31,287 nt of DNA, taken from a virus. The stretch lies in the IMG/VR virus record IMGVR_UViG_3300042905_000399, positions 1-31,287 of that record, one strand, 5' to 3'. The notes below the pieces were generated by a model. It saw only the letters and a program-made list of their open reading frames with translations. It made no database searches and was not told the DNA's origin. A program made the translations under genes and the position numbers. Positions 11,725 through 19,174 of this stretch are shown piece by piece; position 1 is the stretch's first letter, and each line of letters opens with the position of its first letter.

Positions 11725-12240
11725 CTACGACAAGAAGAGGGCGCGTTCGTCTTTGCGGCGTTTATCCAGCCCTGGCAGCACTTTACCCCCACCCTTGTTC
11801 CAAAGCAAGAAAGCGTCTGCTGCGCCTTCCCAATCGCCCCGGTTTGCTTTCATGCGGATGCTGCTGCGCTGGAGGTTGCCTAGCCCGAAATTAAAGGAAA
11901 TACTGACCAGAGCGTCAAAGCGGCCTTGACTGCCAACACTGCCGGGAACAAGTCGAAGAACACCACGTTCAAAACTTGCGACATCCGCGTCGAAGAGATC
12001 ATCAATTTCCTTTTTTGACCAGACACGGTTGTCCTCCGGTTTTAGTGGGTACTCCCTGCGAATCATGGGGATGTCGATCTGGGTCTTTCCTTCTGGCCGC
12101 ATCATAGGCAGGCGAATCTGTTCTTGGTACAGCACATGGCCATACCCAATAGTCCAGATGTGCGCCGGGCACAGGTACGGGCGGTTTCTAAACCCCTCGT
12201 ACTTATGCATCAAGTCAGCGCCAACCTTACTTAGTTTCAC
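11725..12240 (-). CDS. Endolysin, GH24 phage lysozyme with Cys at the catalytic Asp position
   Basis: It would cleave the beta-1,4 glycan bonds of peptidoglycan at lysis. From the GTG start the triad is Glu15 (KYEGF), Cys24 (YLCPAH) and Thr30 (TIGYGH), with the classic E-8-x-5-T spacing. FDALVSISFNFG and GLDKRRKDERALFL are the usual C-terminal lobe motifs. No signal peptide or SAR segment is visible, so it needs a holin. I chose the GTG at 12240 because it overlaps the holin stop as GTGA. A TTG at 12270 would add ten residues and overlap the holin gene by 34 bases. Length (171 aa) is normal for T4/P22-type lysozymes. Cys in place of Asp is known in P1 Lyz, so activity is expected. Confidence 0.92.
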   Translation of the reverse strand: MKLSKVGADLMHKYEGFRNRPYLCPAHIWTIGYGHVLYQEQIRLPMMRPEGKTQIDIPMIRREYPLKPEDNRVWSKKEIDDLFDADVASFERGVLRLVPGSVGSQGRFDALVSISFNFGLGNLQRSSIRMKANRGDWEGAADAFLLWNKGGGKVLPGLDKRRKDERALFLS

Positions 12241-12740
12241 TTCCGGCCCCAGGTGCGCGTCCCAAACCAAAATCCAATAATCCCGCCCAACATGGCCATT
12301 TCGTCGGGACTAAAAATAATATCCGAGTACCGCAGCACATCGTCCATACTCTTAATCATTCCAGGGTTTGTGTACAGGTAGTAACACAAAAACAAATTGA
12401 TCAGCACCAACTCCAGCACGAAGATGTACGTCACCGTCGGGCGCACGGTGCCGACGTAGTTGGCGACCCACTGGCTGGCCCTGTCCAATACCTTTTCATC
12501 GTGCTTGAGCGCGGCTTCCGTCATCTGCGCCTCGGTCTGCATCATGACCTGATCGGTGCGGATTTCTTCAATCTTCTGCTGCGCGGCATATCCTTGAGCG
12601 GCCAGGGCCAACTCACGCTCGTTTTGCATCCTGGCCAGGGCAAGCTCATGCTTTTGGTCGGCCTTGTTTTGGAAGTACTCAAGCAGTTTGGGCAGCCCGG
12701 AAATAAGCAGGCCGCCGAGGGTAGAGATGAGGGACAGCAT
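12237..12740 (-). CDS. Putative holin, 3TM GTA-type, 167 aa
   Basis: Residues 1-20 are hydrophobic (MLSLISTLGGLLISGLPKLL). Residues about 25-85 are a charged coiled coil with repeated Gln/Glu/Lys. Residues about 95-122 (VRPTVTYIFVLELVLINLFL) and about 147-165 (MAMLGGIIGFWFGTRTWGR) are membrane segments. The RP...TY segment and the closing GFWFGTRTWGRK match what I know of the holin-of-3TMs family (GTA_holin_3TM). It sits directly before the lysozyme, sharing GTGA with it, and follows another small membrane gene with a TAATG junction, so a role in opening the inner membrane at lysis is well supported by context. The coiled-coil insert makes it longer than small holins. Confidence 0.78.
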   Translation of the reverse strand: MLSLISTLGGLLISGLPKLLEYFQNKADQKHELALARMQNERELALAAQGYAAQQKIEEIRTDQVMMQTEAQMTEAALKHDEKVLDRASQWVANYVGTVRPTVTYIFVLELVLINLFLCYYLYTNPGMIKSMDDVLRYSDIIFSPDEMAMLGGIIGFWFGTRTWGRK

Positions 12741-13529: not shown

Positions 13530-13621
13530 GATGCGCGTTGGGCCTGATGCCCAGACGAAAAAAAATTTACCAGTGCAATGCGGCTGGCTTCCTCAAGAAC
13601 ATCGTCTAATACAATCAACAT
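13526..13621 (-). CDS. Possible 31-codon ORF, remnant or linker peptide
   Basis: An ATG frame at 13621 overlaps the oxygenase stop by seven bases and ends with a TGA that overlaps the next ATG as ATGA. The peptide begins MLIVLDDVLEEASRIA, then becomes polar. Two tight junctions argue that it is translated and couples the oxygenase to the downstream gene. The VLDDVL opening resembles the first strand of 2OG-oxygenase-type proteins, so it may be the leftover start of a lost gene. No further evidence; low confidence. Confidence 0.35.
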   Translation of the reverse strand: MLIVLDDVLEEASRIALVNFFSSGHQAQRAS

Positions 13622-14175
13622 TTTGTATATACCAAAGCAAAAGTTAATCTGTAAAACGAGGCAATATATGATTGAGGGCGGATTGTATGAGGTATCTTTG
13701 CGTCAAATGCAATTATTCTGCCGGGGGTATATGCGCTGGCAAACCTGATATTTTTACCAGCCTCATCATAGAACAGCGTTTCCCCATGCCAGCCATCTTG
13801 CCAGTCTAGATTTACGTAGTACAAAACAACTTTATCCTCTGGGTGCGTATGAATAAAATTAACATCCGCAGGTGTGGATAAATTTAAAACAGCTTTGCTA
13901 AGCGTATGCCCGACGAGCTCTTGCCCGACCGGGGTTTGCTGTAGCCGCTCTATGTATTCAAGCGACTTTAAATCATCTTCAGAAAAAGCAGAGTGTAAAA
14001 ACTCATATCCTTTTTTCTCTGGCGTAACACTGTCTGCCCAACCAATTTTAAAAAACGAGTTTCTCATAAACTGATAAACCCATGAACGATACGACATGTC
14101 AAACACGCTATCGTACAGCCGCAGCTTGCGTCCGTTGTCAACTTCAGCTTCAATAATTGTTTGGTTTTGCAGCAT
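13615..14175 (-). CDS. 2-oxoglutarate/Fe(II)-dependent oxygenase (prolyl-hydroxylase-like), 186 aa
   Basis: These enzymes couple decarboxylation of 2-oxoglutarate to hydroxylation of a protein, nucleic acid or small molecule. The C-terminal half shows the double-stranded beta-helix core: NFIHTHPEDKVVLYYVNLDW (first iron ligand His109), GETLFYDE at 131-138, PGRIIAFDAKIPHTIRP with distal ligand His163, and Arg176 as probable 2OG anchor. The usual HxD reads His-Thr-His here, so the acidic ligand is unclear; Glu113 or Asp114 might serve. The start ATG has no clear ribosome binding site, unlike its neighbours. Hand-counted GC is about 42% over 13621-14160, against 57% and 65% in two sampled lines of the upstream ATP-grasp gene. 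With the flanking direct repeat this points to recent acquisition. The substrate is unknown. Confidence 0.85.
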   Translation of the reverse strand: MLQNQTIIEAEVDNGRKLRLYDSVFDMSYRSWVYQFMRNSFFKIGWADSVTPEKKGYEFLHSAFSEDDLKSLEYIERLQQTPVGQELVGHTLSKAVLNLSTPADVNFIHTHPEDKVVLYYVNLDWQDGWHGETLFYDEAGKNIRFASAYTPGRIIAFDAKIPHTIRPQSYIASFYRLTFALVYTKC

Positions 14176-14217: not shown

Positions 14218-14280
14218 CTACAATCTGAACATACTCATCGCAAAAGATACGGCAGCAAGGGCGCTTATCGGGTCGATCAT
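14218..14280 (-). pseudogene. 20-codon remnant of the MIDPI-type gene
   Basis: The ATG at 14280 overlaps the TctC-like stop as ATGA, the junction expected for a real gene. The frame starts MIDPISALAAVS, closely matching the first twelve residues of the 159-residue protein (MIDPITALAAIS), then diverges and stops after 20 codons. I read it as the broken or displaced 5' end of that gene, left behind when the oxygenase segment entered. It could instead be a decayed paralogue. Confidence 0.6.
14252..14280. repeat. Direct repeat copy B flanking the oxygenase insertion
   Basis: Matches 13501-13529 at 27 of 29 positions in the same orientation. It encodes the start of the truncated MIDPI frame and abuts the TctC-like gene. 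Confidence 0.85.
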
Positions 14281-15101
14281 GGTATTGGTATGAGCGCATA
14301 TTCTCGCAGCAACTGGCTGCGAAGTGTTGCAGCATCTGCTTTAAAAAACGGTTGTGGCAGGGCAGCCATATTCTCAGCGGTCACGACTTTCTTCGCGGCT
14401 TGTGCGACCTTGCCATTCTCATTTCCGGCTTTGACAAACAAAGCAGTCCAAGAGAAATCAGGAACACCCGTTTGATCAAGCCGCCCCAGCGAACGCAGGT
14501 GGCCACTTTGAACCAAGGCCGCCGCAGAACTGGTTGCGCCTCCAAATGCGTAGTCCAGAATGCCAGACGACAGGTCTGTGTACAGTTGGGTTATCTGCTT
14601 GTAATTTATTTGCTGCGTGTTGGTGCCGATGGTCTTGTCCAAAATGTGCATGGACGCATTCGCCGACGGGTGTGCAGTACCGCCCTTGAGGCCGTTGTTG
14701 GCCTTGGAAAGAGCCACCAGCCCCGCCACATCCTTGACCGGAGACTTGGCAGGCACCAAGATGTTCATCGGCGCATGGGTCAACCCAACGACCGGCACGA
14801 ACTCGCTGATGGGGTCAAAGTCTTTTTGCGGCAGCGTTTTGGCCACAAAAGGAACGGCGAAGCTGCCGATCAAGATGTGATCCCCGCTGAGTTGGTTGAA
14901 GGCCCGGAATCCGACAACACCGTTCCCGCCTGGGGCGTTTGTCACGACTACGTCCACCCCAAGCTCTTTGGCCAGCAGCGGCTGGAGAAACCTTGCCGCT
15001 TGATCCGACAGGGAGCCTGGGCCCGATGTGGTGACGATGGTCAGCGTTGACGCAAACACATTGGTCGAGATCAAAGCCAACGCCAACAGAAACCGCTTCA
15101 C
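14277..15101 (-). CDS. TctC/Bug-family periplasmic solute-binding protein, 274 aa
   Basis: The GTG start overlaps the ATP-grasp stop as GTGA. Residues 1-17 are a Sec signal peptide: MKRF, a hydrophobic core, then NVFA before the mature start, with no lipobox Cys. The mature chain shows the fold signatures of tripartite tricarboxylate transporter binding proteins. These are TSGPGSLSDQAARFLQPLLA, NAPGGNGVVGFRAF, the MNILVPAKSPVKDVAGLVAL segment, GTAHPSANASMHIL, then YTDLSSGILDYAFGG and LVQSGHLRSLG. At 274 residues it is shorter than the usual roughly 320. No TctA or TctB membrane partner is nearby, so it would have to use a host transporter or do another periplasmic job. The family is huge in Burkholderiales and rare in phages. 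GC is like the neighbours, so it is well settled. Confidence 0.9.
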   Translation of the reverse strand: MKRFLLALALISTNVFASTLTIVTTSGPGSLSDQAARFLQPLLAKELGVDVVVTNAPGGNGVVGFRAFNQLSGDHILIGSFAVPFVAKTLPQKDFDPISEFVPVVGLTHAPMNILVPAKSPVKDVAGLVALSKANNGLKGGTAHPSANASMHILDKTIGTNTQQINYKQITQLYTDLSSGILDYAFGGATSSAAALVQSGHLRSLGRLDQTGVPDFSWTALFVKAGNENGKVAQAAKKVVTAENMAALPQPFFKADAATLRSQLLREYALIPIP

Positions 15102-15988
15102 AGTGCAGCCTCCATCGCGTCAAACTTTGCGTTGACTTCGGCCTCGGTTGCACCCACGCCGTTGACCCGGATGAAATCTCCGCCCTTGTCTTTTGCGTCC
15201 GTGCGAGGCAGCAAACCAAACGATTCAATCAACCGCCGCTTGCTTCTCGGGATTGGAGAGCCCCAGTACGAACGATTGACGAACACTGCCGGGGCTACGT
15301 CTGGGATGGGCAAGCCAACCATGTGAGCCAGGGCCGCATCAAGGCACGGGTACTTGTTCGCCAGACCCTGCGTGTAAACCTGCGGGGCCCGTGGGTTCCA
15401 GTCGATTGCGCACCATACGCCTTGGTAGGACAAGAACTGAATGTCGTGCAGGCCGCCAGTGATGTTGAGCCGCTTGCAGGCGGCGGTTATCTGCTCACAG
15501 ACGCCGACATACTCATCCGGCGTTGCCATGCGCAGTTCCGCAGGCTTCTTGGTGTCCAGATGCTTGTGCCGTTGGGCGGCGATCACATGGATGTCGCCAG
15601 ACCTTCCCACAGAAAAATGGATGTCCAAATCTTCCACTGGAAAGCCCAGATGCGGCTGATGCACCCACCCGCCCGTGGCGGAGTTGCGGGGCTTTGCAAG
15701 CGTGCCCGAGGGGGCGTCTTCCGGCCTCTCAATGACAACCGTGGGCAACGTGGCCAAGCCCGTCTCGTGAAGACGATCACGATTCAGGATTTTTTCCAGG
15801 GACGACGCCGGCATGTATGCCGGGTGCCCACCCACGCTGACTGCCGTGTGATCGGAGACAAGCAGAACCGAATCTGCCCCGTCTTTGAAAGGCGTTACCC
15901 CGATCCCCAGCCTGTCGAGCGTGGGCTTATACGCCGCAAGACCAATCCTTTGGTCTGCAAGTGGCATATAAACATTTACTGCGGCCAT
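15098..15988 (-). CDS. ATP-grasp ligase-like protein, 296 aa
   Basis: ATP-grasp enzymes join a carboxylate to an amine or thiol through an acyl-phosphate. Visible motifs are the N-terminal turn LEKILNRDRLHETGLATLPT (about 64-83), ATP-binding LAKPRNSATGG with Lys99 and a Gly loop at 106-107, and the metal site HDIQF (Asp182) with AIDWNPRAP (Asp196, Asn198, Arg200). This is the order expected for the fold. The N-terminal domain is short, which fits small amino-acid or peptide ligases better than biotin-type enzymes. The ATG has GAGG upstream and overlaps the DUF4376 gene by 13 bases; the 3' end shares GTGA with the TctC-like gene, so the two are co-translated. The substrate is unknown. It may modify a virion, cell-wall or small-molecule target. 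Confidence 0.82.
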   Translation of the reverse strand: MAAVNVYMPLADQRIGLAAYKPTLDRLGIGVTPFKDGADSVLLVSDHTAVSVGGHPAYMPASSLEKILNRDRLHETGLATLPTVVIERPEDAPSGTLAKPRNSATGGWVHQPHLGFPVEDLDIHFSVGRSGDIHVIAAQRHKHLDTKKPAELRMATPDEYVGVCEQITAACKRLNITGGLHDIQFLSYQGVWCAIDWNPRAPQVYTQGLANKYPCLDAALAHMVGLPIPDVAPAVFVNRSYWGSPIPRSKRRLIESFGLLPRTDAKDKGGDFIRVNGVGATEAEVNAKFDAMEAAL

Positions 15989-16566
15989 GTAATTGCCTCG
16001 ACAGCTTCAATGGTCGTAGCGGCCTTCACGAGGGCGACCAATTGTTCTTCCGTGGTGAAGCAACTTTGAACGTGCGCCGTTACCGCCTGAACCACGGCAG
16101 CCATCTCGGTTGCATCCAAGTCCAGCCATGTCTCGTTCAGCGCTTTCCAGCTTACCGTTTGGACGGCACCACTTTGCAGCGCAAGATTGGCATTGTTCAG
16201 CGCCGCCTGAGAGCCTCTGTCGGTCGTGATCGTCGCGTTGTAAATCTGAACACCCGCCACTTCCGCCCTCCACCTGTCGTTTGCAAGCTCAGCCATCTTG
16301 TTTGCTTTTGCAATCTCAAGCGTGATGGGCACGGGCTTATTCATCGTGCCGGACGAACCGACGGCAACCGCGATGGTGTGCTCATCTTGCTCAATCCAGT
16401 ACGCGATGGGCGCGTACATTTGCACGATTGCTTCCAACGTCTCACCAACATAAGGCAGCCGGGTGCCAATATGCATGGTTTGACGGCCAGCGGAGGTGTA
16501 AACAATCTCCATAGAATGCGCCGCTTGGTCAACGGCGATGACGTTGTATGTGTACTCAATGCTCAT
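15976..16566 (-). CDS. DUF4376-type tail-fibre-associated protein, 196 aa
   Basis: I chose the ATG at 16566 (MSIEYTYNVIAVDQ), which overlaps the adhesin stop as ATGA and has GGGAG upstream. An ATG twelve codons earlier lies inside the adhesin gene. The N-terminal part (1-70) is a small beta domain. The C-terminal part from about 85 matches DUF4376 as I know it: RWRAEVAGVQIYNATITTDR then SQAAL, a WLDLDATEMAAVVQAVTAHV segment, and a closing TIEAVEAITW. Proteins with this domain usually sit directly after tail-fibre genes and are thought to be fibre assembly or tip proteins. The position after the glycine-rich adhesin agrees. Confidence 0.8.
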   Translation of the reverse strand: MSIEYTYNVIAVDQAAHSMEIVYTSAGRQTMHIGTRLPYVGETLEAIVQMYAPIAYWIEQDEHTIAVAVGSSGTMNKPVPITLEIAKANKMAELANDRWRAEVAGVQIYNATITTDRGSQAALNNANLALQSGAVQTVSWKALNETWLDLDATEMAAVVQAVTAHVQSCFTTEEQLVALVKAATTIEAVEAITWPQ

Positions 16567-17537
16567 GTGATACTCCCAAGACGGGTGCCAAAGGCAACCC
16601 ATGTGATATTTGAATTTCCTGTGATTGCGCCGCCGCCTGAGCCGCCGGAATAGGGGCCTGGACGAGTATTGCTTGTTAGACCTGAAGTGTTTCCGCCAGT
16701 GCTACCAGCAGAGCCCCAGCCACCCCCTGCGCCGCCTGCTCCACCTGTTACGCTTACAATCCCCACGCCCCCTGCTCCACCGCCCCCTGCTGCTGAAGAT
16801 GTGCCAGAAGAACCGGCGCTTCCAGGGTATGAAGAGTCTTGCCCAGTAGCAGGCCCCCCTGCTCCGCCAGAAGAATTTGCAGCAACACCTGATCTACCGC
16901 CGCCACCACCACCGCCCCCAACGCAGGCAAGGCGACTATCTTTATTACCGTCCACATAGGTGTAAATGCCGGTTCGGCCTCCTCCGCCCCCACCCCCACC
17001 ACCGCCTATAGTGTTGTTATTGGTGATGCTAACCGCGACTGATACAGACAAAGCCAACCCACCAGCAGCACCAGCGGAACCAGCAACACTTGAGCTACCG
17101 CTACCACCAGAACCAGCACCGCCGTTACCGCCCATGCCAATGATGAAACCGCCGTTAATTAAGTCCACCCCGCTGGGGAACGACCCATTAATAGTTAAAC
17201 CAGGCGTGCCAGTGCTATTGCTTGAGCAGTAAACACCGCTGGCAATAGTGGCGATGACTTTGCTCGACTGATTCCACCCAGCATTTACAGCCAGCGTACG
17301 GAGGTTGGCGTTGGTCTGGTTTGACGAGATTGTGAATGAGAATGTGTTGGACTTGCCATAAGCATCATTCAAAGAAATGGCACCGCTGGCCTTGCCCAAT
17401 AGTGCACGAACAGCGGCATCATTTAAACTGATTTGTGCCGTGCCACTATAACCAAGCTCCACGTTAATGGATTGGTTCAAACCACTTGTAGTGGCCGTAC
17501 CCCCAAGGGAGATTGGCCCGGAAGATACCATTGTCAT
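16563..17537 (-). CDS. Glycine-tract tail-fibre adhesin, 324 aa
   Basis: The ATG has GAGGT upstream. The N-terminus carries VSSGPISLGGT and SLNDAAVRALLGKASGAISL (37-56), common in fibre proteins of environmental phages and likely the attachment part. Residues about 65-130 form a beta domain. From about 129 to the end the chain is glycine-rich, with runs of ten (178-187) and eight glycines (207-214) and many GGxGG units separated by short polar loops. This composition is that of gp38-type adhesins, such as phage S16, where glycine stretches pack as polyglycine II helices and the loops between them bind the receptor. Inference: this is the receptor-binding tip. The neighbouring DUF4376 gene may assist it. 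Confidence 0.82.
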   Translation of the reverse strand: MTMVSSGPISLGGTATTSGLNQSINVELGYSGTAQISLNDAAVRALLGKASGAISLNDAYGKSNTFSFTISSNQTNANLRTLAVNAGWNQSSKVIATIASGVYCSSNSTGTPGLTINGSFPSGVDLINGGFIIGMGGNGGAGSGGSGSSSVAGSAGAAGGLALSVSVAVSITNNNTIGGGGGGGGGGRTGIYTYVDGNKDSRLACVGGGGGGGGRSGVAANSSGGAGGPATGQDSSYPGSAGSSGTSSAAGGGGAGGVGIVSVTGGAGGAGGGWGSAGSTGGNTSGLTSNTRPGPYSGGSGGGAITGNSNITWVAFGTRLGSIT

Positions 17538-18334: not shown

Positions 18335-19174
18335 TCACTGGGAATTGTTGATATTCTGCCAGTTTGCGTTTTGAGCGGTAACTATTTTTATCCACCCACC
18401 CAGCCCGAAGCTGTCGGCCAGGACCGCGTTCTCAGACACGGCCACATTGAACCCGGCCTGCACAGTGCGGATGTCGTTGGCGTTCAGGTTCTCGATGACA
18501 CTGCCAATAAACCCAGCCACAATGGTCTCGACAGATGCCGCCCCAAAGTTTTCAACGACGGTGTCCACAAAGACGTTAACAATTGCAGCGGCGTCCTCAA
18601 CCGTCATCCCCTCTGTCACAGCCTGGGCGAACTGAGCGGCGATGGCCTGAATGTCGTTCATCGTCATAGCCTCAGACAAGGACTGAGCAAACTGGGCGGT
18701 GATTACAGGGGTGTCATTGAGGTTGGCGTTTTCAATGATGGATTGCCCAAAGTTGGACTGCTGAACACTGGCATCGGCCACCTCCAAAATGTCTTCGGTG
18801 CGGGTCTGGCCAAAGGCAAAGAAGACGTTCTGGGTATCGGCAAGGTCTGCGTTCTCAGTGACAGATTGGGCAAACTGAGCCGAGATGGCAATGACATCTG
18901 CCGGGTTGGAGTTCTCGCTGATGGATTGCAGAAACGTCGAGGCTTGGGTGCTGGCGTCGTCGGCTGTAAACGGCTCATTGATGGTGGCAATAAACAGCGC
19001 GTTGCCTGTGATCTCAATGTCGTTCTCAGTGATGACCTCAGTGATGGATTGCAAAAAGGCAGAAACCTGAGTACTGGCGTCGGCCAAAACAATATCTTCA
19101 GTAATAGCAAAAGAAAAACTTCCCCCCGCAAGAGACGCAAACGGGGTTTGGGCGAAGTTAGATATTCCAAACAC
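18335..19174 (-). CDS. Fibre-type protein built of about eleven 20-residue repeats, 279 aa
   Basis: The start is GTG at 19174, eight bases after the previous stop, with GGGTAAG upstream. After a 25-residue leader the chain is a series of units near 20 residues long that end in a hydrophobic pair plus Glu. Examples are NANLNDTPVITAQFAQSLSE, AMTMNDIQAIAAQFAQAVTE and NSNPADVIAISAQFAQSVTE. I count eleven units from about residue 27 to 248, followed by a distinct tip (SFGLGGWIKIVTAQNANWQN). Asp at position 6 and Phe near 14 are the most constant. No known family is certain; the repeat suggests a rod or solenoid. Its place among fibre genes suggests a tail-fibre shaft. Confidence 0.75.
   Translation of the reverse strand: MFGISNFAQTPFASLAGGSFSFAITEDIVLADASTQVSAFLQSITEVITENDIEITGNALFIATINEPFTADDASTQASTFLQSISENSNPADVIAISAQFAQSVTENADLADTQNVFFAFGQTRTEDILEVADASVQQSNFGQSIIENANLNDTPVITAQFAQSLSEAMTMNDIQAIAAQFAQAVTEGMTVEDAAAIVNVFVDTVVENFGAASVETIVAGFIGSVIENLNANDIRTVQAGFNVAVSENAVLADSFGLGGWIKIVTAQNANWQNINNSQ

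Follow-up and report, generated by a model that had tools for sequence, protein, structure and literature searches.

Two adjacent genes in a viral DNA stretch of 31,287 nucleotides (IMG/VR record IMGVR_UViG_3300042905_000399, positions 1 to 31,287; the whole stretch is referred to here as the window) encode a divergent protein with a predicted ATP-grasp fold (gene A) and a TctC/Bug-type solute-binding protein (gene B), and we conclude that the two genes make up a single module linked to the receptor-binding fibre locus. Relatives were found by pattern scans, which were not exhaustive. Gene B lies directly downstream of A in all 11 contigs that show both genes (the window, L001, L002, L003, L004, L008, L023, L024, L025, L032 and L044), which span three divergent branches and phages of two types. 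Both proteins of L001 are the same as those of the window, leaving ten distinct pairs. The gap between the genes is −4 bases in five of these (a four-base overlap in the window, L002, L003, L004 and L008), +3 in another four and +9 in the remaining pair. A motif scan of the whole viral collection returned ten contigs with the pair present in every one, and scans with B added a single contig, L035, whose end falls before any A could appear. As far as seen, the pair is obligate. The proposal of a sequence-only reading of this DNA that the two genes may be one functional unit is supported by their adjacency in related phages, with no independent occurrence in any of the 11 contigs, and by the ATP-grasp fold modelled for a homologue of A.

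The locus lies on the minus strand of the window, in the order Gly-rich fibre-tip gene, DUF4376 fibre-accessory gene, A, B, 2OG-oxygenase-like gene (gene C), small genes and lysozyme gene (Table 1), and PHROG matches for other window genes are to virion and DNA-ejection functions. The first 13 bases of A are shared with the fibre-accessory gene. The sequence-only reading had placed A between fibre and lysis genes and noted a GTGA shared with the TctC-like gene, and both observations hold; its description of A as late-expressed would follow from gene position only. Comparison of the window with L004 gives a dN/dS of 0.14 for A and 0.14 for B, and purifying selection acts on both. At this value A is no chance open frame, and the 340-residue frame on the opposite strand (15047–16069, plus strand), which covers A and B, is therefore a shadow open reading frame and not a gene.

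Table 1 Features of the fibre locus in the window
Feature	Position	Strand	Basis
Gene A, divergent protein with predicted ATP-grasp fold, 296 residues	15098..15988	−	Open reading frame; homologue model, PurK Z 19.1; hhalign 99.2%
Codon of K99, conserved lysine of A	15692..15694	−	Same residue in 10/10 rows
D196-W-N-P-R200 of A, putative metal-site motif	15389..15403	−	D, W, N and R in 10/10 rows
Gene B, TctC/Bug-type solute-binding protein, 274 residues, GTG start	14277..15101	−	PF03401, E=1.2e-17
Apparent Sec signal peptide of B, about 17 residues, ending V-F-A	15051..15101	−	Judged by eye
GTGA stop/start overlap of A and B, 4 bases	15098..15101	−	Sequence
Fibre-accessory protein, N-domain of about 70 residues plus DUF4376	15976..16602	−	PF14301, E=6.5e-21; phrog_10508 tail fiber protein, E=2.7e-25
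Gly-rich tail-fibre tip, adhesin-like	16563..17537	−	PF05268 GP38, E=1.7e-5, 25.2 bits (cut-off 25); phrog_2056
Gene C, 2OG-Fe(II) oxygenase-like	13615..14175	−	NF052475, E=1.3e-15, 57.9 bits (cut-off 240); PF13640, E=0.02
Lysozyme, lysis gene downstream of the pair	11725..12270	−	PF00959, E=1.6e-33

The A protein of the window has no match in Pfam at E≤1, no informative one in NCBIfam or PHROGs, no match to the ATP-grasp models of these three libraries, and no PDB sequence match at E≤10. Searches of the INPHARED phages with tblastn returned nothing for A of the window (E≤0.01), L024 (E≤1) or L044 (E≤1), and L044 A has no match among plasmids at E≤1. The sole direct family hint is a match of PF15632 (ATPgrasp_Ter) to L025 A (E=7.6e-4, 19.7 bits, under the cut-off of 29.1). 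Homologues were gathered from IMG/VR using the gene itself, the neighbouring oxygenase gene, a distant-branch profile and the motif scan, and ten distinct sequences in three branches align along their length. An AlphaFold model of the L025 homologue (ten sequences, L025 first) has a mean pLDDT of 82.5 and a pTM of 0.81. Its best structural match is PurK (Foldseek E=1.4e-13; VIA-align Z-score of 19.1 and r.m.s.d. of 4.4 over 299 aligned residues, with 11% identity), followed by near-ties with the amino-acid ligase YwfE (Z-score of 17.8) and biotin carboxylase (Z-score of 17.7), and the model confidently predicts an ATP-grasp fold for this homologue. A model led by the window protein (four near-identical sequences) reaches a pLDDT of only 35; its branch aligns with that of the modelled homologue at an hhalign probability of 99.2, and a single BLASTP comparison relates window A to L044 A (2e-14). 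By this homology to the modelled branch, window A probably has the ATP-grasp fold, as first read from its letters. A is shown here to be a new, sequence-divergent family with this fold, one that no family library names in the window. PurK, YwfE and biotin carboxylase are carboxylate- or bicarbonate-activating enzymes, and by analogy A is a putative ligase.

K99, G178, G179, H181, D196, W197, N198 and R200 are the same in all ten A rows, position 182 is D or E throughout, position 184 is Q or E in nine and A in L008, and position 199 is P, A or T. Position 70, a candidate for the linker basic residue before the RAGNYA domain, is R in nine rows and K in L008, and a second basic residue follows K99 as R101 or K108, the site differing by branch. 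The ExN-type motif reads D-W-N in all ten rows, with D replacing E. By analogy with characterized ATP-grasp enzymes, K99 would be the ATP-binding lysine of strand 2 and D196-W-N-P-R200 a metal site patterned on ExN(P)R; Q184, D196 and N198 would be the counterparts of the residues that bind metal in carbamoyl-phosphate synthetase-type enzymes. Three elements had been named from the letters (Lys99-Pro-Arg, a Gly loop and Asp-x-Asn-Pro-Arg): the lysine and the metal-site motif stand, with K, D, N and R in 10/10 rows, whereas the Gly loop is not shared by the family as a whole. The TGG at 105–107 is confined to that branch, positions 106/107 being T/S, T/A or G/E in the five homologues outside it, and a Gly-rich loop is absent from all A rows when the alignment is read by eye. 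Such absence is no bar to membership of the ATP-grasp superfamily, because the R2K families, as far as the accessible text of PMC4431377 goes, also do without this loop.

The stretch between K99 and Q111 comprises 11 residues in the window branch compared with 45–48 in relatives outside it. The lid of ATP-grasp enzymes is mobile and closes over ATP; this lid appears largely missing from the window branch, which leaves catalysis there uncertain, and together with A184 in L008 the short lid means that activity in this branch may be lost. Window-branch A might thus be a pseudo-enzyme, serving as a lidless ATP-binding protein or a scaffold, with B an ordinary auxiliary metabolic gene by which carboxylates are taken up. 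The short lid, the lack of a Gly-rich loop and A184 in L008 all suit this explanation, as do the phage-borne uptake binding proteins on record (PstS of cyanophages, in the accessible part of PMC10976474). We nonetheless consider it unlikely: K99, D196, N198 and R200 are kept in all five short-lid sequences, including L008, which is only 58% identical to the window, and dN/dS is low.

Gene B is recognized directly by PF03401 (64.8 bits against a cut-off of 27), as are, above cut-off, B of L008, L024 and L044 and the TctC of L028, and its profile matches in the structure library are Bug27 and terephthalate-binding proteins. A positively charged and then hydrophobic N-terminal stretch is seen by eye in all seven aligned B rows and in L044, and B is apparently exported through a Sec signal peptide. 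TctC proteins bind carboxylates. The domain-1 motif P-F-x-A-G-G-x-x-D is kept as A-G-G-x-x-D in L025 B, whereas the window has T-S-G-P-G-S-L-S-D, in which the G before S and the D are retained. Window-branch B is also about 26 residues shorter near the C terminus than B of L023–L025 (17 + 9 alignment columns). Both partners have shrunk in the window branch, A by about 34 residues (the lid) and B by about 26.

The B proteins of the pairs form a group of their own. YKQ occurs in all ten paired phage B proteins and in none of 12 bacterial TctC proteins, seven of which have YKG. In a tree of 25 rows, which omits L001 (same as the window) and L035 (partial), a branch with 100/100 support separates the ten paired phage B proteins from the 12 bacterial TctC proteins, which were drawn from plasmid records only; the Cupriavidus metallidurans row (L045) is an open frame of 493 residues whose TctC part is preceded by additional residues. 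Elsewhere in the same tree are L028 and the two faecal records (MT835824 and MT836965). The faecal records were rejected as paired phage TctC because they fall outside the phage clade, and MT835824 has no match to A. Two genome-contig scans, which as exact-peptide scans are weak, found no bacterial relatives. The TctA permease (PF01970) was found in none of eight phage records, some of which are fragments.

The tight coupling of the genes could also mean that A acts on B itself, for example by ligating a residue to an end of B before export, with the four-base overlap giving 1:1 synthesis. Translational coupling and obligate linkage would both be expected if so; B varies at its C-terminal end from branch to branch, though, and no conserved acceptor site was recognized in it, and we regard modification of B by A as very unlikely.

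The pair is not limited to one phage type: L044, a 43-kb record with T4-type baseplate PHROGs, belongs to a contractile-tailed phage. Among its 35 open reading frames of at least 80 residues, two match the window-like phage and three match the L024 phage (E≤1e-5), and the frames that match are the fibre, A and B. The N terminus of its adhesin is 53% identical over 60 residues to the corresponding segment of L020, which is related to the window phage and belongs to the podovirus-like group, by direct BLAST (E=1.6e-16); an adhesin profile search against the L044 phage gave nothing. Apart from the pair, L044 shares almost nothing but the fibre region with these phages, and the travelling unit thus seems to consist of adhesin, A and B. 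The N-domain of about 70 residues in the fibre-accessory protein accompanies DUF4376 in the window and its relatives and sits on proteins other than A in L018 and L021. In one contig, L023, A is itself fused behind this fibre-accessory N-domain (E=7.6e-29), with a junction suggestive of loss of the DUF4376 part by deletion. L044 A bears a long N-terminal extension; this was considered as a counterpart of the L023 fibre domain and rejected, since it shows no similarity to that domain and resembles nothing searched.

An oxygenase gene lies beside the pair in 7 of the 11 contigs (absent from L002, L003 and L044, with L032 unscored), and gene C is thus a frequent, non-obligate neighbour. Its presence, the constant adhesin neighbour and the L023 fusion are what would be expected if A were a ligase acting on the fibre, with the adhesin receiving an amino acid or peptide from it, and B were exported as an independent accessory, for instance to mask or compete for a receptor, the two having timing rather than a ligand in common. 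This explanation, which we consider somewhat unlikely, does not account for why B never leaves A when the oxygenase does: only 6 of 23 oxygenase loci contain A and 17 are without it. A cargo site holding varied enzymes, such as oxygenases and desaturases, could alternatively keep A and B adjacent as neutral hitch-hikers through block exchange of fibre loci. Of the explanations considered this is the least probable, given purifying selection on both genes and the reshuffling of other cargo around the pair, the oxygenase being downstream of it in the window, L004 and L008 and upstream in L023–L025.

The cargo of these loci is varied. In two close relatives, L002 (3240–4151) and L003 (3835–4650), no gene C follows B, its place in L002 being taken by a gene resembling the structural gene at 18335–19174 of the window. 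In the relatives L009–L016, L019 and L020 this locus, from the fibre to the genes downstream, holds runs of small genes in a fixed order (about 157, 182, 186, 160 and 196 residues, some absent from individual contigs), of which the 186-residue gene is the oxygenase-like gene C; two other run genes from L010 have no Pfam match and are oxygenase-like by eye only. The label of PHROG 274, 'DNA endonuclease V', may be wrong; its members here (window 13615–14175) resemble 2OG oxygenases. Fatty-acid desaturase genes (PF00487) are present at L018:6409–7131, L021:4203–4976 (below cut-off) and L028:185–1003, of which two lie within the fibre cargo locus. In L028 (3111–8315), another large phage, a TctC gene lies 151 bases before a 2OG oxygenase gene; about 1.9 kb upstream is a gene for an AMP-binding ligase (PF00501, E=1.5e-65), and the desaturase is nearby. 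L028 was rejected as a member of the module, being a different phage with a distant TctC and no A; its gene set is possibly a convergent combination of a binding protein with a carboxylate-activating enzyme.

The explanation we tentatively prefer, at somewhat less than even confidence, is a two-protein module in the fibre-tip locus of unrelated tailed phages that captures and ligates a carboxylate. Since carboxylates are the ligands of TctC proteins, and the enzymes closest in fold to A activate carboxylate or bicarbonate, the simplest unified account has B capturing and A activating. Beyond the export of B, the steps are ones we infer. B would hold a small carboxylate through the TctC carboxylate clamp and either feed a host TctAB permease or serve as a reservoir; A would use ATP to convert the captured carboxylate into an acyl phosphate and join it to an amine. 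The fibre or adhesin would be the likeliest acceptor, because A is fused to a fibre domain in L023 and the adhesin is a constant neighbour. Several points weigh against this explanation. With A in the cytoplasm and B apparently in the periplasm, a shared ligand is not required, and with TctA absent from the eight phage records examined any permease would have to be the host's. The short lid, A184 in L008, the departure of window B from the domain-1 motif, the shortening of B and the restriction of the fusion to the single L023 contig also count against it. The fullest form of the proposal, in which exported B collects a carboxylate during infection and the ATP-grasp ligase attaches it to the receptor-binding fibre, is in our judgement improbable as a whole; if true, it would be a chemical route to diversify or finish an adhesin, block-exchanged between unrelated tailed phages. 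Because the locus also gathers 2OG oxygenases and desaturases, the pair would allow a test of whether enzymes modify tail fibres before these are assembled. Orphan TctC proteins are very numerous in beta-proteobacteria and poorly understood. If functional, the pair gives an orphan TctC a setting with an obvious partner and adds an unnamed ATP-grasp family.

Among characterized ATP-grasp enzymes, PurK, the L-amino-acid ligases (YwfE and BL00235) and biotin carboxylase share with L025 A the whole-length fold, the lysine and a [D]xN-x-R core. A differs from them in its 11–13% identity, in D for E in the ExN motif and in having no Gly-rich loop, and further in the lack of a Pfam match for window A and the short lid of the window branch. 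Phage ATP-grasp proteins of the R2K clade are on record (PMC4431377 and, in its accessible part, PMC7824862), R2K.2 being found in caudate phages (PMC4431377). In the accessible text of PMC4431377, R2K proteins resemble A in being phage-borne, in lacking the usual G-rich loop and apparently in a further basic residue beyond the strand-2 lysine, but are said to miss a basic residue ahead of the domain, for which position 70 is the candidate in A; A gave no match to the R2K Pfam models.

Orphan TctC genes stand beside carboxylate enzymes (arylmalonate decarboxylases) in bacteria, and the beta-proteobacterial TctC/Bug orphans, as described in the accessible part of PMC5812351, resemble B in PF03401, an export signal and no adjoining permease. 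Unlike them, B has its own phage clade, YKQ for YKG and a constant position behind an ATP-grasp gene, and window-branch B is shortened at the C terminus. Cyanophage PstS is likewise a phage-borne solute-binding protein used in infection, but it belongs to another family, and no linked ligase or fibre-locus position is mentioned in the accessible part of PMC10976474. A TctA domain on a SUP05 phage contig places another gene of the TTT system on a phage contig; it is a permease subunit and not TctC, and the accessible part of PMC4164917 mentions no ATP-grasp protein. No report of the A–B pair was found in the open-licence literature searched, and no paper there joins TTT transporter, bacteriophage and ATP-grasp. 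The comparison suggests that, while a single PstS and single ATP-grasp enzymes are known in phages, a linked unit of a binding protein and an ATP-grasp protein is apparently new.
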